The position numbers and the translations under genes are program-made. DNA of 40,944 nucleotides from Frankia sp. R82 (lineage in GTDB: Bacteria > Actinomycetota > Actinomycetes > Frankiales > Frankiaceae): assembly GCF_023716925.1 (NCBI RefSeq), contig NZ_JAMQQG010000033.1:1-40944 (forward strand), written 5' to 3'. Positions 16,451 to 39,341 of this stretch are shown piece after piece. Below the pieces are notes generated by a model. That model saw only the letters and a list, made by a program, of their open reading frames with translations. It was not told the origin of the DNA and searched no databases. Numbering within the stretch: the first letter of the stretch is position 1; the number at the start of each line of letters is the position of its first letter.

Positions 16451-16564
16451 CGGGGTACCGTCCCCACGGGGATGGTTGCAGGCAGACACGCGACGACCGG
16501 GCGGTGTCAACCGCCCCTGACACGCAGGCGACACCATCGTCTGGACGAAGGGACTGAGTCCTCG

Positions 16565-17854
<1,290 letters not shown>

Positions 17855-17924: not shown

Positions 17925-19238
17925 TCAGGTCGGGTCACGTCGGGGCACGACGCTCAGGATCCGACGAGCCTCGGTGAGGTGGTAGAAGGAGCCGGTCACC
18001 AGGATCGCCCCGGTTGGTCCGGCGTGGTGCAGGGCCTGCCGTACGGCGGTGGTGACCTTCGGCTGGGCTCGCGCGGGCAGACCGAGGCGTTGTGCCGCGG
18101 CGGCCAGCTGCTCGGCCGGGATCGCCCGTGGAGACGCGGGTTCACAGCACAGCACCATGTCGACCAGCGTGCCGTCCAGCTCCGCGAGCGTGGCCTCGAA
18201 GTCGTGGCCGCGCAGCGCTCCGTAGACGACGGTCCACCGCCGTGCCGGGAACTCCTCGGTCAGCGATCGGACGAGCGCCGCGGTCGCCGCCGGATTGTGC
18301 GCGCCGTCGAGGACCCGTAGCGGGGCCGCGCCGACGATCTCCAGCCGGCCCGGCGCCCGGACCGCGGCCAGACCCGCCTCGACCACCTCGGCGGGCAGGG
18401 CCGCACCGACGAACGCCTCCACCGCCGCGAGCGCACAGGCCGCGTTGGCCTCCTGGTAGGTACCGTGCAGCGCAAGCAGCACATCGTCGTATCGGGCGAG
18501 CGCCGTGCGCAGGCTCCCGCGGCGTCCGGTGGGGTCCGGGCGGCCGTCAAGGAAGGCGAACTCCGTGCCGAGCCGCTGGATGCCGGCAGCCGGCGTGCGG
18601 GTGAACACCGGGTCGAAGCGGGCCTCGACCTCCCCGAGGACGAGCTGGGCACCGGGCTTGACGATGCCGGCCTTCTCCTGGGCCACGCCGTCGAGGCTGC
18701 CGGCATAGTCCAGATGGTCCGCCCCCACGCTGGTGACCACCGCAACCCGTCCATCGGCGATGTTGGTGGCGTCCCACCGACCGAGCAGCCCGACCTCGAT
18801 CACCGCCACGTCCGCGGCGGACTCGGCGAACCAACCGAAGGCGGCGGCGGTGAGCAGCTCGAAGAACGTCGGACGCTCGGCCATCGGCGCGGCCGCGTCC
18901 ACCGCGGCGCCGACGCAGCGGGCGAACACGTCGTCGTCCACGGGACGCCCGGACAGCACGAGCCGCTCGTTGACCCGTTCCAGGTGTGGGCTGGTGTAAA
19001 GGCCGACGCGCCGGCCGGCCGCGCCGAGCAGCGCCGCGGTGATCCGGGCCGTGGACGTCTTGCCGTTCGTGCCGGTCAGGTGGATCACCGGGAAACGGCG
19101 CTGCGGGTCGCCGAGGCGCCGGGCCAGCTCCCGCATCCGGTCCAGGCTCGGCACCGGTGACTGCGCGGTGATCGCCTGCTTTTCCAGGTCGACCGATCTG
19201 TCCAGCGCCGCACGCGCCGCCTCGTAAGTCCACGTCAC
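17925..19238 (-). CDS. folC: Dihydrofolate synthase / folylpolyglutamate synthase, catalytically intact
   Basis: A 437-residue FolC that ligates glutamate to dihydropteroate and folates with ATP. All active-site motifs are intact: P-loop GTNGKTST (56-63), TSPHLERVNERL, EVGLLGRWDATN, the VGADHLDYAG histidine, EKAGIVKPG with the carbamylated-lysine position, and DGAHNPAA in the C-terminal domain. The GTG at 19238 has GCGGAG 7 nt upstream. In other actinobacteria folC sits on the same strand as clpX and ndk; here it is inverted, convergent with clpX, and divergent from a degenerate FolC homologue. It is probably the strain's working copy. Confidence 0.96.
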   Translation of the reverse strand: MTWTYEAARAALDRSVDLEKQAITAQSPVPSLDRMRELARRLGDPQRRFPVIHLTGTNGKTSTARITAALLGAAGRRVGLYTSPHLERVNERLVLSGRPVDDDVFARCVGAAVDAAAPMAERPTFFELLTAAAFGWFAESAADVAVIEVGLLGRWDATNIADGRVAVVTSVGADHLDYAGSLDGVAQEKAGIVKPGAQLVLGEVEARFDPVFTRTPAAGIQRLGTEFAFLDGRPDPTGRRGSLRTALARYDDVLLALHGTYQEANAACALAAVEAFVGAALPAEVVEAGLAAVRAPGRLEIVGAAPLRVLDGAHNPAATAALVRSLTEEFPARRWTVVYGALRGHDFEATLAELDGTLVDMVLCCEPASPRAIPAEQLAAAAQRLGLPARAQPKVTTAVRQALHHAGPTGAILVTGSFYHLTEARRILSVVPRRDPT

Positions 19239-19390
19239 CGGCTGACTCCGCCTCCCTGACCAGGTCGGCTCCCGCCGCCCGGACTCCGCAGACCGGCCTC
19301 GACAGTAGCGACTCGCGCAACACGGATGAACCCGTTCACACCGCCACCGGGGCGAACGTGCCGCAGCACACCCGCCCGGACCGGTCCCCG

Positions 19391-19396
19391 TAGGAT
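19391..19396 (+). promoter_or_regulatory. -10 hexamer of the FolC-like gene, leaderless type
   Basis: TAGGAT is followed by 7 nt and then GTG at 19404. This supports the 19404 start over an upstream ATG at 19326. No clear -35 is seen. Confidence 0.45.
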
Positions 19397-19403
19397 CGGC
19401 GGT

Positions 19404-20927
19404 GTGACAGGCGCCGCTGCGAACGCCGGCACCACGGCCGGCTCAGGTTCCACCGCATCCTCGGAGGATCAGGACTGGTCGGGTCCGGCCCGCTTCGCTG
19501 CCGCCCACGCCCGGCGGGCCACCGTCGTGGCGCAGCCCGGGCTGGACCGGCTGCGTCGCCTGCTCGACCTGCTCGGCCAGCCCCAGCGGGCGTTTCCGAG
19601 CATCGTCGTCGCGGGTTCGGTGGGCAAGAGTTCGACCCTCGCGGTGATCACCGCGCTGCTCGAGGGGTTCGGCGTCCGTGCCGGCAGCCTGCGCGCTCCC
19701 GAGTGGATGGGGCCCGCTGAGCAGGTGGGGCTCGTGGGTGCCGCGATCCCGGCCGAGGTGCTCGAGCGGGCCTATGCCGACATCGCGCCCTACCTGCCCC
19801 TGGTGGAGGACGACGGTTGGCTGAGCGCGGGTGAACTGCTGGTGGCGGTCGCCGTCGCGGCTTTCGCCGACTCCCCGGTTGACCTCGCCGTGGTCGAGTC
19901 CGGCGGCCCGGGTTCCGAACGGCCCGGTGCGGGCGGATTCGGTGATCTGGCCGATCTGCTGGACGTGCCGGTCGCCGCGGTGACTCCGGTGGCCACAGCC
20001 TGGTCCGAGGACGGCTGGTCCGAGGACGGCTGGTCGCCGGACGGGGACCCGGGGGATGGCTGGTCCGAACAGGGGCGGTTCGCGGCCGGCCGGCCCGCGG
20101 AGCTCGACGTCGAGTCCACCGGGGGCGATGACCCGGAGCTGGACCGGATCGCCGCGCCGGTGGGCGCCGTGATCCGGTCCGGCACGCTGGTCGTGCTGGC
20201 CCAGCAGGCGTTGCCGGCGGCCCGGGCGCTGCTGCGGCGGGCGGCGCTGGCCGGGAGCACGGTGGCGCGGGAGGGCATGGAGTTCGGGGTGCTGGGCCGC
20301 CGGGTCGCCGTCGGCGGCCAGATGATCACGTTGAAGGGTCTCGGCGGAACCTACGAGGAGCTGTTCCTGCCGCTGCACGGCGCGCACCAGGCGCACGACG
20401 CCGCTGTCGCCCTGGCCACGGTCGAGGCGTTCCTCGGTGGCGGGCAGAACCAGCTTGACCTCGATGTCGTGCGGGCCGCGCTCGCCCAGGTCGACGGCCG
20501 CGGCCGGCTCGAGGTGGTGCGGCGCAGCCCGACCATCGTGCTCGACGTCGCCGACAGCCCGCTCGCGACCGCCGCCGTCGTGGACGCCCTGCAGGAGGCC
20601 TTCAGCTTCGAGTCCCTGGTCGGCGTCGTCGCCGTGGAGGGCGACGAGTCGCAGGCGGCCCGGATTCTTGCCGCGCTCGAGCCGGCGCTTGCCGCGGTGG
20701 TGCTCACCAGCGGGGCGACGGCGGGTGCCCTGCCCGTGGACGATCTTGCCGCGGTCGCCGCCGGCGTGTTCGGGGCGGACCGCATCGAGGTCACCCCCCA
20801 CCTCGACGACGCCCTGGATGACGCCGTCCGCCTTGCCGAGGCCGAATCCGACCTCGGGGGAGCGGGCGTGCTGGTGACGGGTTCGGCACCTGTTGTGGGT
20901 CGGGCGAGGGTGTTGCTGCGGTCCTGA
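19404..20927 (+). CDS. FolC-family pseudoenzyme (Mur ligase fold, catalytic motifs lost)
   Basis: A 507-residue FolC homologue without catalytic residues. Conserved framework includes PQRAFPSIVVAG, TVAREGMEFGVLGRRVAVGG, FLPLHGAHQAHDAAVAL and GRLEVVRRSPTIVLD. The motifs have changed. P-loop GTNGKTST is GSVGKSST (71-78). TSPHLE is replaced by RAPEWM (98-103). EVGLGG is ESGGPG (165-170). The DHxxxLG histidine and EKAGIIK lysine regions are gone, replaced by WSEDG repeats (200-224). DAAHNP is DVADSP (381-386). The frame is unbroken, so it is not a decaying pseudogene. The P-loop may still bind nucleotide. It occupies the usual folC position before ndk. A regulatory or scaffold role, perhaps with the neighbouring FolC, is inference. 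Confidence 0.88.
   Translation: MTGAAANAGTTAGSGSTASSEDQDWSGPARFAAAHARRATVVAQPGLDRLRRLLDLLGQPQRAFPSIVVAGSVGKSSTLAVITALLEGFGVRAGSLRAPEWMGPAEQVGLVGAAIPAEVLERAYADIAPYLPLVEDDGWLSAGELLVAVAVAAFADSPVDLAVVESGGPGSERPGAGGFGDLADLLDVPVAAVTPVATAWSEDGWSEDGWSPDGDPGDGWSEQGRFAAGRPAELDVESTGGDDPELDRIAAPVGAVIRSGTLVVLAQQALPAARALLRRAALAGSTVAREGMEFGVLGRRVAVGGQMITLKGLGGTYEELFLPLHGAHQAHDAAVALATVEAFLGGGQNQLDLDVVRAALAQVDGRGRLEVVRRSPTIVLDVADSPLATAAVVDALQEAFSFESLVGVVAVEGDESQAARILAALEPALAAVVLTSGATAGALPVDDLAAVAAGVFGADRIEVTPHLDDALDDAVRLAEAESDLGGAGVLVTGSAPVVGRARVLLRS
20001..20045. repeat. 15-bp tandem repeat inside the FolC-like gene
   Basis: TGGTCCGAGGACGGC occurs at 20001-20015 and 20016-20030, with a diverged copy at 20031-20045 and a further TGGTCCGA at 20061. 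It encodes WSEDG units where FolC normally has catalytic residues. Confidence 0.75.
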
Positions 20928-21030: not shown

Positions 21031-21444
21031 GTGTCCGCCGAGCGCACCCTCATCCTGGTCAAGCCGGACGGCGTCAGCCGTGGTCTCGTCGGTGAGGTGG
21101 TCGGCCGGCTCGAACGCAAGGGGCTCACCCTGGTGGCCCTCGAGCTGCGCACGCTTGCCCGCTCGGTCGCCGAGACGCACTATGGCGAGCACTCGAGCAA
21201 GCCTTTCTTCGGCGAGCTCGTCGACTTCATCACCTCCGGTCCGCTGGTGGCGCTCGTCGCCGAGGGTCCCCGGGCCGTTGAGGCCTCCCGTGGCCTGATC
21301 GGCGCGACCGACCCGGTCAAGGCCGCCCCCGGTTCGCTGCGTGGCGACTACGCGCTGGAGATCGGCCAGAACCTCGTGCACGGGTCCGACTCGCCGGAGT
21401 CGGCCAAGCGGGAGATCGACCTGTTCTTCCCCGGCCTGAGCTGA
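21031..21444 (+). CDS. ndk: Nucleoside diphosphate kinase
   Basis: A 137-residue NDP kinase, which balances nucleoside triphosphate pools by passing the gamma-phosphate of ATP through a phosphohistidine. The start [18 protein letters not shown] is typical, and the active-site histidine is in NLVHGSDS near residue 117. GTG at 21031 has AAGGAGA 5 nt upstream. The length is that expected for the family. A complex hairpin follows, separating it from mreB. Confidence 0.97.
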
Positions 21445-31330: not shown

Positions 31331-34300
31331 GTGCCCGACGATGACCTGACCACCCAGACAGACCCCGAGTCCCCTCGCCCTGCGCCGCGTCGGCGCCGAG
31401 CGGCGGGACGTGCCGCCGGTGCGCCCAGCGAGCCACCCGCCGCCACGGAGTCGACCACCCCGTCCGAGGCCGCACCCGTCAGGGACGGGGGGCCGGCGAC
31501 CCCGCCACCCGCCCCGGCCGGCGAGATCGCGGCCAGCCCCCCCGCCGAGTCGGCTGACGGGGGCGACGCCGCCCCGGCACCAGCCGCCAGGCGACGTACC
31601 CGCAGCGCCGGTGCCACGACACCGCGCGCCCGATCCAGCCGTGCCTCCCGGGCGAAGGCGACCGAGGCCGGCTCGGAGCCATCCGGAACATCCGAGCCAT
31701 CCGGAACATCCGAGCCATCCGGAGCATCCGAGCCATCCGGAGCATCCGAGCCATCCGGAGCATCCGCCGCCCCGGCCGCGCAGACCGTGAGCGCCGAGGC
31801 ACTGATCCCGCAGACACCGAGCGCGGTGTCCCCGAGTACCGAGCCGGCGAGCCCGGCCACCGAGTCGCCCGCCGTCGAGGCGCCGGCCGCCCCCGCGCGG
31901 CGTACCCGGAGCCGTCGTGCGGTGCGCGAGGCGGCACCCGTCACCACCCCGGCCGGCTCCGAGCCCGTCCCCAACGCCGATGCCGTCCCCAACACCGACC
32001 TGGCGACCAACACCGTCGCCGTCCCCGACACCGGCCCGGCGACCAACACCGACGTGGGGGCCGACACGTCGGTCGCCGCTTCGCCGACGACGGCGAGGCC
32101 GTCCGTCGAGGTGCCGGCCGAGCCGACCGCTGCGGACGTGTCCCTGGCGCCTGCGCCGGAGGTTCCCAAGGCGACCCGTCGCACTCGTGCCCGTCGGGCC
32201 ACCTCCGGTCCCGTCAGCCCTTCGGTGGAACCCGACGCGGCACCGTTCGTCGCCGGCGCTGAGGGATCCGCCGGTGTGTCCGTCGCGGAAAGCGCCGCCG
32301 CTGCCGGTGTCGGCGAACCGGTGGCGGGCGACGGCGCCGCTGCGCAACCCCGTGCCCGTACCCGGCCCCGCAGCACGCGGCGTCGAGCTTCCAGCGAAAG
32401 CACCGGCACCACCGAGAACACCGGCACCACCGAGAACACCGCCGCGGCCGCGTCGCCTGCCGCAGAGGTGGCCGACCCGGCGTTGGCCGACTCCGCGCCG
32501 ACGGGCGACGGTGCCGCACCGGCCGTGGTCGTCCTGGCACCTGAGACCGAAGCCGCGACCGTGCCGGCCGAGCCGGTCGTCGTCGTCGAGGCCGCATCGC
32601 CGACTGTTCCCGCGCCGCCGGCCGGGAGCCTCGCTCCAGACGCGTCCGACACCGCTCCCAGACCTCCCACGGCCGAGGTGAACGCCGAGGTCGTCCCCGA
32701 GACCGATGCGGACGACCCGGCTGGTGTGGACGACCCGGCTGGTGTGGACACCGCGGCTACGGCGGAAGGTGAATCGACCGGCGGCGAGCCGGCCAGGACA
32801 CCGGGGACCCGCAGCCGCTCCAGGTCCCGGCGGGTCACCGCTCCGACCTGGACCGATGCCGCCACCGAGCCGGCACCACCGGCACCGGCCCGACCCGTGA
32901 CGCGCCGTCCCGTCGCGATGGTGACCTTCCAGGCGCCGGTACCGGCGGTCGAGCCCCGCTGGCGCCGCGAGGTCCCACCGGCCACGCCGATTTCCGACGA
33001 CATGGACGTCCCCCCGGCGGCAGCAGCCTTCGCCGAACCGAGCGACACCGCCGTCGCCAGGCCGGACACCCGCGGGCCCGCCCTCGACGAGGACGACGAG
33101 GAGATCACGCCCGGCGAGGCTGAGTCCGGGGAGTTCACCGAGATCGACGACGGCGATTTCGACGACGACGACGAGCAGGGCACGGGCTCCGGCTCGACGC
33201 GGCGACGTCGGCGTGGTCGTCGCGGTCGCGGCCGGGCTCGCGGCGACGAGGACGGTTCCGACCTTCCCGGCGATGAGACTGCCACCGTCGGTGCGCCGGG
33301 CGACCCGTCGTCCGGCGCGGCCGACGACCCGGCCGTCTCCGTCACCGTGGCCGGGCGTTCGTCCGAGGTGACGGAATGGGACGGCGAGACGGCACAGGCC
33401 GCCGAGGCCTCGGACGACGTCGAGGACGCGGCCGACGGAGACGGTGACGAGGTCGACGGAGACGATGATCGCGCCAGCGGTTCGCGGCGTCGGCGGCGTC
33501 GGCGGCGGCGCACCGGCGGCGAGGAGGCGACCACTCCCGATGACCCGCCGAACACGGTCGTCCATGTGCGCGAGATCCGCCGCGACGAGGTCCGCCGCGA
33601 CGAGGACCAGGTCCGCGGGCTCAGCGGCTCGACCCGGCTCGAGGCCAAGCGCCAGCGGCGTCGCGAAGGCCGTGACAACGGACGGCGCCGCCCGCCGATC
33701 GTCACCGAGGCCGAGTTCCTCGCCCGCCGCGAGGCCGTCGAACGGCGGATGATCGTCCGTCATGCCGGCGACCGCACCCAGATCGCCGTGCTGGAGGACG
33801 GGGTGCTCGTCGAGCACTTCGTCACCCGGGCCAGTTCCGCCTCGTACGCGGGCAACGTGTACCTCGGCCGGGTGCAGAACGTGCTGGCCAGCATGGAAGC
33901 GGCGTTCGTCGACATCGGCAAGGGCCGCAACGCCGTGCTCTACGCCGGTGAGGTCAACTACGACGCGTCCGGGCTTGACGGTCGTCCCCGCAAGATCGAG
34001 CAGGTGCTCAAGTCGGGGCAGTCGGTGCTTGTCCAGGTGTCCAAGGACCCCATCGGCCACAAGGGCGCCCGGCTCACCAGCCAGATCAGCCTGCCGGGCC
34101 GGTACCTCGTGTACGTGCCGGACGGCCAGAACGCCGGCATCAGCCGCAAGCTGCCCGACACCGAGCGGTCTCGACTCAAGAGCATTCTCAAGAAGATCAC
34201 GCCCGAGGACGGCGGCGTGATCGTGCGCACCGCGGCCGAGGGAGCGAGCGAGGCCGAACTGGCCCGCGACGTGGAACGCCTCGCCGCGCAGTGGGAGGAC

Positions 34301-35656
34301 ATCCAGCGCCGCTCGAAGAAGGCGTCCGCGCCGTCGCTGCTCTACGGCGAGCCCGACCTCGTCGTGCGGGTCATCCGCGACATCTTCAACGAGGACTTCA
34401 CCGAGCTCGTCGTGCAGGGCTCCGGCGAGGCCCGCACCATCGAGGAGTACATCGACACCGTCGCGCCCGATCTTCGCCCGCGGATCCGTCGCTACACCGG
34501 CACGGGCGACGTCTTCACCGACTACCGGGTCGACGAGCAGCTCGCCAAGGCCCTCGACCGCAAGGTCTGGCTGCCCTCGGGCGGCTCGCTCGTCATCGAC
34601 CGCACCGAGGCGATGACGGTGGTCGACGTCAACACCGGGAAGTTCACCGGTAAGGGCGGCAACCTCGAGGAGACGGTCACCAAGAACAACCTCGAAGCCG
34701 CCGAGGAGATCGTCCGCCAGCTCCGGCTGCGCGACATCGGCGGGATCATCGTCATCGACTTCATCGACATGGTCCTGGAAAGCAACCGGGAGCTGGTACT
34801 ACGCCGGCTCACCGAATGCCTCGGTCGCGATCGCACCCGCCACCAGGTCGCCGAAGTCACCAGCCTCGGCCTGGTCCAGATGACCCGTAAGCGGGTCGGC
34901 CAGGGCCTGCTCGAGGCCTACAGCGAGCAGTGCGTGCACTGCAACGGCCGTGGCGTGACCATTCATCTCAACGGCGGTGGTAGCGGCGGCCACGACCAGT
35001 CGGTCCACGGCCACAACGGCCATGGCCACGGTCCGAACGGTCAGAGTCAGAACGGTCACGCTCCCCAGGGTCAGGGCCAGGGCCACAACGGTCACGGGCA
35101 GCCGGCCACGGCCGCCCCGCTGGAATCGGCTGCCCCGGAAGGATCGGCCGCCCCGGCGGCCCCGGGTGGCCAGTCCGAGTCGGCCGCGGCTGGCGGGACC
35201 GGCTCGACGTCCGGTGGCAGCAGCCGGCGCTCCCGCTCCGCGGCAACACGGGCGGCGGGCGGTCCGGCGCTGGTCGCGGCCGTCACGCAGGCAGCATCCT
35301 CACCCGTCGTTGTGCCGGCGGACGCGGCGCAGGTCGGATCCGTGGACGCCGACCTACCCGACGCCGGGCAGGACGATGGCGTCGTGGCGATCAACGGTAA
35401 CGGGCACCGTCTCGCGTCGAGCGCGGTGACCGCGCCCGCGGCGGGTGACGTGACCCCACCCGTCTACGCGAACTCCGACGATCCCGACAGCCTCGCCGGC
35501 GGGGACGCGGGTGTGGACAAGCCGGCCCGTCGACGGCGCCGGGCGTCCCGACCCGCATCGAAGCCGTCCGCGGAAGAAGCTCCGTCGCCGGCGGTCTCCT
35601 CGTCCGCCACGGCCACGGCCACAGCGCCGGAACCAGCGGAGCACCTCGACAGCTGA
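31331..35656 (+). CDS. rne: Ribonuclease E/G with very long low-complexity N-terminus
   Basis: A 1441-residue RNase E/G-family endoribonuclease for mRNA decay and rRNA processing. The catalytic region starts near 800: S1 domain (GNVYLGRVQNVLASMEAAFVD, near 838), then DNase I-like site residues in VVDVNTGKFTG and VIDFIDM, and the zinc-link CVHCNGRG near 1200. The first ~790 residues are Ala/Pro/Glu-rich, with several RRxRSR-type basic patches and acidic stretches, and carry tandem repeats. The C-terminal ~240 residues are a His/Gly/Asn-rich then Ala/Ser-rich tail. Actinobacterial RNase E has such arms on both sides; this N-terminal one is longer than those of the Streptomyces or mycobacterial enzymes as I recall them. 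The GTG start has GAGAGG upstream. Confidence 0.95.
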   Translation: MPDDDLTTQTDPESPRPAPRRRRAAGRAAGAPSEPPAATESTTPSEAAPVRDGGPATPPPAPAGEIAASPPAESADGGDAAPAPAARRRTRSAGATTPRARSSRASRAKATEAGSEPSGTSEPSGTSEPSGASEPSGASEPSGASAAPAAQTVSAEALIPQTPSAVSPSTEPASPATESPAVEAPAAPARRTRSRRAVREAAPVTTPAGSEPVPNADAVPNTDLATNTVAVPDTGPATNTDVGADTSVAASPTTARPSVEVPAEPTAADVSLAPAPEVPKATRRTRARRATSGPVSPSVEPDAAPFVAGAEGSAGVSVAESAAAAGVGEPVAGDGAAAQPRARTRPRSTRRRASSESTGTTENTGTTENTAAAASPAAEVADPALADSAPTGDGAAPAVVVLAPETEAATVPAEPVVVVEAASPTVPAPPAGSLAPDASDTAPRPPTAEVNAEVVPETDADDPAGVDDPAGVDTAATAEGESTGGEPARTPGTRSRSRSRRVTAPTWTDAATEPAPPAPARPVTRRPVAMVTFQAPVPAVEPRWRREVPPATPISDDMDVPPAAAAFAEPSDTAVARPDTRGPALDEDDEEITPGEAESGEFTEIDDGDFDDDDEQGTGSGSTRRRRRGRRGRGRARGDEDGSDLPGDETATVGAPGDPSSGAADDPAVSVTVAGRSSEVTEWDGETAQAAEASDDVEDAADGDGDEVDGDDDRASGSRRRRRRRRRTGGEEATTPDDPPNTVVHVREIRRDEVRRDEDQVRGLSGSTRLEAKRQRRREGRDNGRRRPPIVTEAEFLARREAVERRMIVRHAGDRTQIAVLEDGVLVEHFVTRASSASYAGNVYLGRVQNVLASMEAAFVDIGKGRNAVLYAGEVNYDASGLDGRPRKIEQVLKSGQSVLVQVSKDPIGHKGARLTSQISLPGRYLVYVPDGQNAGISRKLPDTERSRLKSILKKITPEDGGVIVRTAAEGASEAELARDVERLAAQWEDIQRRSKKASAPSLLYGEPDLVVRVIRDIFNEDFTELVVQGSGEARTIEEYIDTVAPDLRPRIRRYTGTGDVFTDYRVDEQLAKALDRKVWLPSGGSLVIDRTEAMTVVDVNTGKFTGKGGNLEETVTKNNLEAAEEIVRQLRLRDIGGIIVIDFIDMVLESNRELVLRRLTECLGRDRTRHQVAEVTSLGLVQMTRKRVGQGLLEAYSEQCVHCNGRGVTIHLNGGGSGGHDQSVHGHNGHGHGPNGQSQNGHAPQGQGQGHNGHGQPATAAPLESAAPEGSAAPAAPGGQSESAAAGGTGSTSGGSSRRSRSAATRAAGGPALVAAVTQAASSPVVVPADAAQVGSVDADLPDAGQDDGVVAINGNGHRLASSAVTAPAAGDVTPPVYANSDDPDSLAGGDAGVDKPARRRRRASRPASKPSAEEAPSPAVSSSATATATAPEPAEHLDS
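31676..31765. repeat. 18-bp tandem repeat in rne, 5 copies
   Basis: GAGCCATCCGGAACATCC and one-base variants repeat five times without gaps, encoding EPSG[TA]S units. Two shorter 18-bp duplications lie further on in the same arm (32401-32436 and 32711-32746). Confidence 0.85.
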
Positions 35657-37697: not shown

Positions 37698-39341
37698 GTG
37701 TCGAACTTCGTCGACCGAGTGACACTGCATGCGGCGGCCGGGGACGGCGGGCACGGGTGTGCGTCCATCCACCGGGAGAAGTTCAAGCCGCTGGGCGGGC
37801 CGGACGGTGGCGACGGCGGCAACGGTGGCGACGTCCGCCTCGTGGTCGACCCGAGCGTGACGACGCTGCTCGACTTCCACTTCCACCCGCATCAGCGGGC
37901 CACCCGTGGACGTCCCGGCCAGGGATCCAACCGGCACGGCGCGGCCGGCGGGGATCTCGTGCTCTCCGTCCCCGACGGCACGGTGGTGCTCAGCGAGGAC
38001 GGCGAGCAGCTCGTCGACCTGGTCGGCGCCGGCAGCGCGTACATCCTGGCCCGTGGTGGGCGTGGCGGGCGGGGTAACGCGGCGCTGGCCTCGGCCCGGC
38101 GTAAGGCGCCCGGCTTCGCCGAACTCGGGGAACCGGGCGAGCAGCTCGACGCGATCCTCGAGCTCAAGACGGTCGCCGACGTCGCGCTGGTCGGTTTCCC
38201 CAGCGCCGGCAAATCGTCGCTGGTGTCGGTGCTCAGCGCCGCCCGGCCGAAGATCGCCGACTATCCGTTCACCACTCTGGTCCCCAATCTCGGTGTCGCC
38301 CAGGCTGGTGACCACCCCCCGTACACGGTGGCGGACGTACCCGGGCTCATCCCCGGGGCGAGCGATGGCCGTGGCCTGGGTCTGGAGTTCCTGCGGCACA
38401 TCGAGCGGTGCTCACTGATCGTGCACGTGCTCGACTGCGCCACGCTCGAGCCCGGCCGTGACCCACTGACCGACCTGGACGTGATCGAGTCCGAACTCGC
38501 CGCGTACTCGGCGGACCTGTCGAACCGGCCCCGGCTGGTCGTCCTGAACAAGATCGACGTCCCGGACGCGGCGGACCTTGCCGAGCTGGTGGCCCCGGAT
38601 CTGCGCGCCCGCGGGCTCGACGTGTTCGCGATCAGCACGGCGACCCGCCAGGGCGTGCACGGGTTGTCCCTGGCGCTGGCCGCCCGGGTGGCCGAGCTTC
38701 GCGCGGCCGCGCCGGTCCAGACCGCGACCCGGATCGTGCTGCGTCCCCGGGCGGTGAACGAACCCGACTTCGTGGTGACGACGCAGGGCGAGGACGGTTT
38801 CCTCATCACCGGGTCGAAGCCGCAACGGTGGGTGCGCCAGACCGATTTCACCAACGACGAGGCCATCGGCTTCCTCGCCGACCGGCTCGCCCGGCTCGGC
38901 GTCGAAAAGGAACTGGCCCGCCTGGGGGCCACTCCCGGCGTCGAGGTCACGATCGGTGAGGTGACATTCGAGTGGGAGCCGACGCTCAGCGGCGGCGGCT
39001 ACGTCACCGCCGCCGACGGCCAGCAGGCCGCGACCGCGCAGCCTGACCCGGCGGTCGACGACGAGATTCACCTCGGGCCGCGCGGCTCCGACGACCGGCT
39101 GCGTTCCTCGGTCCGGCTCACCCGGTCCGAACGGATGGCCCGCGCCGAGCGCGCCCGCACCTACGACCCGGCAGATCCGGCTGCCCCGGCTGCCCCGGCT
39201 GACCCGGCTGACCCGGCAGATCCGGCAGATCCGGCAGATCCGGCAGATCCGGTCGACCCGGCCGACCCGAGGCGGGCGGCGGAGCTCGCCCTGTCGGACG
39301 TGGCCGGTTCCGCGGAACCGGGCGGTTCGGGGCCGGCGTAG
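37698..39341 (+). CDS. obg: Obg family GTPase
   Basis: A 547-residue Obg GTPase involved in 50S subunit maturation, stress response and, in Streptomyces, differentiation. Glycine-rich Obg fold: residues 1-158 ([24 protein letters not shown]). G domain: G1 GFPSAGKSS near 165, G3 DVPGLI, G4 NKID near 284. The actinobacterial OCT domain spans about 340-430 ([20 protein letters not shown]). The last 110 residues are a disordered tail with a DPA repeat. GTG at 37698 has AGGAGG 6 nt upstream; an upstream in-frame start is not family-like. Confidence 0.97.
39165..39270. repeat. 9-bp tandem repeat in the obg tail, about 12 copies
   Basis: Units GACCCGGCA, GATCCGGCA, GCCCCGGCT and GACCCGGCT repeat without gaps, encoding (D/A)PA tripeptides. 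Confidence 0.85.

Follow-up and report, generated by a model that had tools for sequence, protein, structure and literature searches.

Pseudoenzymes are generally attributed to gene duplication. The PAP11/MurE-like subunit of the plastid RNA polymerase is non-catalytic. In trypanosomes, catalytically dead paralogues (the AdoMetDC and deoxyhypusine synthase prozymes) are reported to activate the live enzyme in a complex (PMC5201418, PMC3663545). The locus analysed here, from the nodule bacteria Frankia, likewise brings a dead and a live homologue together in one genome, but whereas in trypanosomes the dead protein is a paralogue of the live one, here the dead gene appears to be native and the live gene foreign-type, and the pairing is seen at gene level only. 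PAP11/MurE-like, recovered as a structural match (8r6s, 9epc), resembles the dead Frankia protein as a Mur-ligase-fold relative in a non-metabolic complex, but differs in its MurE lineage, its plant plastid setting and its very large complex. Nearer still are M. tuberculosis FolC (2vor/2vos) and the FolC of family NF047860, which the dead FolC resembles in homology over both domains and in fold, and the other Frankiaceae FolC, with which it shares its gene neighbourhood. Unlike M. tuberculosis FolC and NF047860, it has no metal His, no carbamyl-Lys and no His or Asn of the AHN motif, and a disordered linker stands in for the catalytic segment; it also scores below the cut-offs of both NF047860 and TIGR01499.

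The window, by which we mean the whole stretch of DNA analysed (40,944 nucleotides of Frankia sp. R82), carries the two FolC genes between clpX and ndk:

16472 to 17854, forward strand: clpX, upstream of the folC pair (Pfam; start codon position provisional)
17925 to 19238, reverse strand: intact FolC, foreign in type (probably Acidimicrobiales), facing the dead gene head to head (profiles, trees)
19404 to 20927, forward strand: dead FolC of apparently native lineage, a pseudoenzyme of 507 amino acids (ORF, profiles, alignment, dN/dS, trees)
21031 to 21444, forward strand: ndk, downstream of the dead FolC (Pfam)

The gene order is clpP-clpP-clpX (forward), intact folC (reverse), then dead FolC, ndk and mreB (all forward); clpX and ndk were identified by Pfam, clpP and mreB by reading ORFs. 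An earlier reading of the letters alone (the sequence-only reading) had placed the gene at the usual folC position, and synteny from clpX to ndk-mreB across the family agrees. The full-length FolC homologue of 507 codons without a frame break that it described is also what we found: the ORF opens with GTG and runs unbroken through 507 residues. Its best NCBIfam score was against NF047860, mycobacterial-type FolC (399 bits, below the curated cut-off of 700), and it scored 127 bits against TIGR01499, general FolC (below the curated cut-off of 162.65). The nearest solved relative was 2vor, M. tuberculosis FolC (E 2e-73), and the homology spans both domains in the NCBIfam profiles and in the 2vor match. 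With similarity far beyond chance, sequence comparison makes the gene a true FolC homologue. A Pfam search (E up to 1) returned the C-terminal Mur ligase domain alone, with no DNA-binding or signalling domain.

The neighbour, called intact in the same reading, proved so, its motifs being complete and the catalytic positions examined being present in all 13 genomes of our genus sample (one genome per species, R82 included). It scored 304 bits on NF047860 and 300 bits on TIGR01499, above the cut-off of the latter (162.65); the higher NF047860 score of the dead copy first hinted that this gene, rather than the live one, might be the native actinobacterial FolC. It reads EVGLLG, as do some FolC of the putative donor type described below, where native FolC has EVGMGG or EVGLGG. 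A set of 39 donor-type FolC, with four other-class rows left out, has 74 near-invariant positions; the live copy retains 70 of them, and positions 170 and 318 are changed in 13/13 genomes. Besides the dead and live copies, no third FolC match was found in the genome to which the window belongs.

Both FolC genes co-occurred in 13/13 Frankia genomes. In 12 of these a single contig carried the pair, head to head and flanked by clpX and ndk, and in the other (G006) it was split over two contig ends. Six other Frankiaceae genera, sampled in 22 genomes, had a single FolC at the same site in 21, with no match in one genome (63% complete). These 21 proteins had the live residue at every catalytic column examined; single exceptions occurred at three non-catalytic columns (L to M, I to V and G to A), and one column fell in an alignment gap. 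The orthologue at the locus was 44–46% identical to the window copy in genus g7, which we take to be cluster 4, 49–52% in g5 and 47–50% in g6. The proteins of loci L039 and L040, which match the dead copy at 30–35%, retain GTNGK, DH, EKA and DGAHN by eye.

We compared catalytic residues across the 13 dead copies in an alignment on L. casei FPGS numbering, checked against printed alignments; the roles assigned to the L. casei positions, including E143 as a metal ligand, are general background. Three features of the dead gene are central to this comparison:

19614 to 19634, forward strand: P-loop GSVGKSS, codons 71–77, invariant in 13/13 copies, with synonymous variation at 6 of the 7 codons
19896 to 19898, forward strand: Glu165, equivalent to L. 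casei E143, codon 165, in 13/13 copies
19998 to 20168, forward strand: variable, low-complexity linker, codons 199–255, replacing DHxxxLG...EKAGI (pooled dN/dS 0.86)

The metal His (DH), the carbamylated Lys (EKAG) and the AHN His were present in 0/13 dead copies, against 21/21 live Frankiaceae FolC and 13/13 live neighbours; equivalents of H170, K185, H316 and N317 were found in none of the 13. Equivalents of K50, S52, E143, R300 and D313 were present in all 13, that of S73 in 10 (Ala in the window copy) and that of N264 in four; among the residues preserved throughout are Glu165, Arg368 and Asp381 of the dead FolC. Compared with GTNGKxS, the P-loop retains both Gly, the Lys and the Ser and has Thr and Asn replaced in 13/13 copies; GTNGKTS was found in 34/34 live FolC aligned. 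Among 121 positions invariant or nearly so in those 34 proteins, the dead copies kept 59, kept 28 in part and lost 34. The motifs read from the letters alone (GSVGKSST, RAPEWM, ESGGPG, no DH, no EKAGI Lys, DVADSP) were all correct on alignment. The claim built on them, that every checkable catalytic motif is lost, stands for H170, K185 and H316 but is too strong as a whole, because the P-loop and some other ATP and metal positions (K50, S52, E143, R300, D313) survive in 13/13 copies. Nucleotide binding is nevertheless unsure, since the P-loop Thr and Asn are lost in 13/13 copies, S73 in 3/13 (the window copy included) and the adenine-side Asn in 9/13. Orthologues across Frankia had been proposed as a check against recent loss, and the catalytic His, Lys and His were present in 0/12 of the other copies; losses common to 13/13 copies rule out a recent loss in a single strain. 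The residues now at the lost catalytic sites differ among the 13 copies.

The dead gene is maintained by purifying selection on the protein. Its dN/dS (NG86, with pairs partly non-independent and codon bias ignored) was 0.23–0.40 over 78 genome pairs (median 0.30), and that of the live neighbour 0.11–0.31 (median 0.25); dS was 0.80 or less in 13 genome pairs checked. Pooled over 6 hand-picked pairs of the 78, the whole-protein value was 0.28 for the dead copy vs 0.27 for the live neighbour. By region, pooled dN/dS in the dead FolC was 0.52 in the N-terminal tail, 0.22 in the first N-terminal part (the N-core), 0.14 in the second, 0.25 in the C-terminal domain and 0.86 in the linker. The linker has no invariant residue among 13 copies, varies in length by strain and includes in the window a 15-bp tandem repeat coding WSEDG (20000–20044); it is a near-neutral control within its own gene. 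Across the protein, 225/507 residues were invariant, and no internal stop occurred in the 13 copies, that of G006 starting at a contig edge. A dN/dS of about 0.3, rather than near 1, answers the purifying-selection check that had been proposed, and together with losses in 13/13 copies firmly supports the earlier suggestion of a pseudoenzyme retained by selection.

Loss of catalysis did not affect all parts of the protein alike. Two further regions complete its division:

20169 to 20501, forward strand: second N-terminal part, codons 256–366 (pooled dN/dS 0.14; identity 0.67 vs 0.69)
20502 to 20924, forward strand: C-terminal domain, codons 367–507 (Pfam Mur_ligase_C 367–494), with the GRLE Arg and LD Asp kept and the AHN His and Asn lost

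We compared mean identity between dead and live Frankiaceae FolC (273 pairs) with that between live FolC of different genera (157 pairs). The means were 0.44 vs 0.79 in the N-core, 0.67 vs 0.69 in the second N-terminal part and 0.61 vs 0.71 in the C-terminal domain. The catalytic core was thus reshaped along the stem and, with an identity of 0.79 among dead copies, is constrained again now. On these identities the second N-terminal part appears hardly affected by the loss; its similarity to live FolC is that seen among live proteins, and it may have retained a binding role on little-changed surfaces. An AF2 model of the dead FolC, built from 16 sequences (nine dead copies, six live neighbours and one Chloroflexi FolC), had mean pLDDT 73.2 and pTM 0.73, with a disordered linker and N-terminus; pLDDT fell below 50 in the linker and in other stretches including 169–178, 291–303 and 365–367. 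Alignment to FolC structures, also suggested earlier, gave a clear result: the model has the FolC fold, matching 2vor with Z 37.3 and an rmsd of 2.9 over 409 residues, followed by other FolC and then by Mur ligases and cyanophycin synthetases. A common fold, here a predicted one, by itself shows no function.

The sequence-only reading did not foresee what phylogeny suggests about the pair, namely that the dead copy is native and its intact neighbour foreign-type. A quick tree of 113 rows and a careful tree of 75 rows (38 near-duplicate or long-branch rows removed by hand) agreed in outline; in the alignment, three live-copy translations whose BLAST matches extended beyond the gene were cut back to their first stop, and G013 FolC was taken as the last 480 residues. 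Dead copies grouped with their own class's FolC (support 99 in the quick tree and 100/99 in the careful tree; long stem, 0.64–0.69). They grouped further with most Frankiaceae FolC (88–90 and 82/77, an open group that includes one other-family row, with G013 outside both). Their nesting inside Frankiaceae is thus moderately supported, and synteny carries what this leaves in regarding the dead copy as the native FolC. Live copies fell inside the FolC of another class, beside family f136 (99/97 careful, 94 quick; likewise a long stem, 0.70). Constraining them with their own class's FolC was rejected (AU test, p 0.0034, for a group named after the tree was seen), whereas a single clade of 24 donor-type FolC without the live copies was not (p 0.199), so their exact attachment is loose. 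The order on the donor side includes genomes that we take to be Acidimicrobium ferrooxidans and Ilumatobacter coccineus, hence our wording that the donor was probably Acidimicrobiales; a donor-side relative of the live copy was 52% identical to it.

These comparisons firmly support the view that the live copy did not arise by duplication of the native gene, and it was likely transferred from a relative in Acidimicrobiales. The trees and the AU test (p 0.0034) reject an origin of the pair by tandem duplication within Frankia. A separate history would make both genes old paralogues from the phylum ancestor, the second having been lost outside Frankia with no transfer. The folC of two donor-type genomes, read from ORFs, lies in the same clpX ... 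folC ... ndk mreB order, which would suit such a history as would a basal place for the live copy (left by the AU test at p 0.199); the foreign-type gene in Frankia thus occupies the equivalent locus, inverted. Yet this history requires repeated loss, the live copy is nested inside donor-type FolC (99/97), and among 393 genomes of the class the 13 genus matches to it had E 4.7e-196 or better, the next best being 3.7e-88 (47% identity), so that we think this history quite improbable. Taken together, the trees, the AU tests and synteny suggest that a foreign-type FolC displaced the native one in catalysis in the genus ancestor.

As to function, we favour, tentatively and as a real possibility, the reading that the native FolC (dihydrofolate/folylpolyglutamate synthase) turned into a non-catalytic FolC-fold binding protein once a foreign FolC had taken over. 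In the genus ancestor, as computed phylogeny and synteny suggest, an other-class FolC (probably Acidimicrobiales) would have inserted, inverted relative to the native folC, between that gene and clpX. The newcomer would then have taken over folate synthesis; its complete motifs, and the lack of any further FolC match in the genome, suggest that the live copy does the chemistry. Residues for Mg2+ and carbamate chemistry were lost from the native copy; the segment bearing them became the disordered linker, and the N-terminal domain was remodelled in its first half. The P-loop, the second N-terminal half and the C-terminal domain stayed under the purifying selection computed above. The dead FolC may now work without catalysis. 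On surfaces that have changed little it would keep another function of the old enzyme, one of the interaction type, and the P-loop that survives might act as a nucleotide-dependent switch. A more specific proposal, which we find unlikely if still worth stating, is that the displaced enzyme became a nucleotide-gated, non-catalytic regulator of the folate step, or of nucleotide supply via ndk, and was retained throughout the genus: a pseudoenzyme that arose by displacement rather than by duplication.

Other functions can be weighed on the same data; the partner, regulator or sensor roles raised in the sequence-only reading are possible, and none of the computed results singles out a particular partner. 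The dead FolC might bind the live one and raise or control its activity, by analogy with trypanosome AdoMetDC. In 12/12 single-contig genomes the genes face each other head to head; they co-occur in 13/13 and have similar pooled dN/dS, as such a partnership would predict. The live FolC, however, keeps 70/74 near-invariant donor-type positions and so looks self-sufficient, which argues weakly against a prozyme pair; being foreign-type, it had no co-evolution with the native copy before its arrival, and FolC acts as a monomer. We rate this partnership as rather unlikely, and similarly so a ligand sensor whose remodelled cleft binds nucleotide or folate and regulates folate or nucleotide metabolism, for instance via ndk. 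The P-loop Lys, Glu165, Arg368 and Asp381, all present in 13/13 copies, would suit a sensor, as would the 11 of 34 lost live-invariant positions at which all 13 copies share a single replacement residue; that share, however, does not exceed the overall invariant share (225/507), the residues replacing the lost His and Lys drift, and Pfam finds neither a DNA-binding nor a signalling domain. Strong constraint, with the P-loop and first metal Glu present, might also point to a new ligase that couples an amino acid to an acid of some kind through different catalytic residues, but the segment for the carbamyl-Lys and second metal has become a variable linker with zero invariant residues, and we consider this very improbable. 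Scarcely credible is a decaying pseudogene, or an ORF kept merely for an ndk promoter or operon. Gone catalytic residues and drift in the linker (0.86) and N-terminal tail (0.52) are what decay would leave; dN/dS of 0.14–0.25 outside the linker and tail rules out a decaying pseudogene, there is no internal stop and 225/507 residues are invariant. Since P-loop amino acids are fixed while their codons vary, a role at the DNA level is disfavoured.

Searches of the open-access literature on Frankia folC, on FolC and Mur-ligase pseudoenzymes and on gene displacement listed no report of a dead FolC. A table of one study lists a folC, FRAAL1914 (2,074,787, Table 1), among 108 genes that symbiotic strains have in common at a 50% identity threshold and that cluster 4 lacks (PMC10252897). 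By coordinate match in G001, this entry corresponds to the ACN14a copy of the dead FolC. As far as that table goes, its absence from cluster 4 may be a threshold effect, because the g7 orthologue sits at the same locus with 44–46% identity, under the 50% limit (identities to the window copy, not the ACN14a copy). FRAAL1914 is annotated there as a working folylpolyglutamate synthase, which could mislead studies of the folate pathway. In Frankia an essential enzyme's native gene appears to have lost its catalytic function next to a foreign-type one, and the protein of the native gene persists in 13/13 sampled genomes. Should actinobacterial FolC have a further role apart from catalysis, Frankia would have separated the two naturally, which makes that role testable.

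Promoter-like boxes precede both genes, each identified by consensus match only:

19391 to 19396, forward strand: TAGGAT, −10-like box, 7 nt before the GTG of the dead FolC
19302 to 19307, reverse strand: TACTGT, −10-like box upstream of the intact folC, found in 11/12 intergenic regions

In an intergenic alignment of 12 of the 13 genomes, the box before the dead FolC read TAGGAT in 11 and TACCAT in the twelfth. A TAGGAT 7 nt ahead of the GTG would fit a leaderless transcript. It was found upstream of 0/21 other Frankiaceae FolC, whose start codons are uncurated; several genus g5 genomes have ATAACCT at a similar distance before GTGACAGACG.

In two donor-type genomes an ORF of 565–577 amino acids lies between clpX and folC (L221:1707-3440, forward; L220:4780-6477, reverse). 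These ORFs match just the first 500-odd of about 860 ValRS positions and score 142 and 172 bits on TIGR00422 (cut-off 612); by sequence they represent a shortened, divergent valyl-tRNA synthetase relative at a valS-folC locus, and possibly another retained dead enzyme. ValRS above the TIGR00422 cut-off was found in 4/34 Frankiaceae genomes searched, and among the matches listed valS lay directly before folC in G013 only (L096, G013:C240). G005 had one ValRS match of each type (913 and 553 bits). Elsewhere in the window, a 1441-aa ORF (31331–35656) has Pfam RNase_E_G at residues 920–1189 and a very long, low-complexity N-terminal part, which includes an 18-bp repeat in about 5 copies (31676–31766). 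A further repeat array, GACCCGGCT, lies at 39165–39269, with a 27-bp or 9-bp unit in 3.9 or 11.7 copies, respectively.
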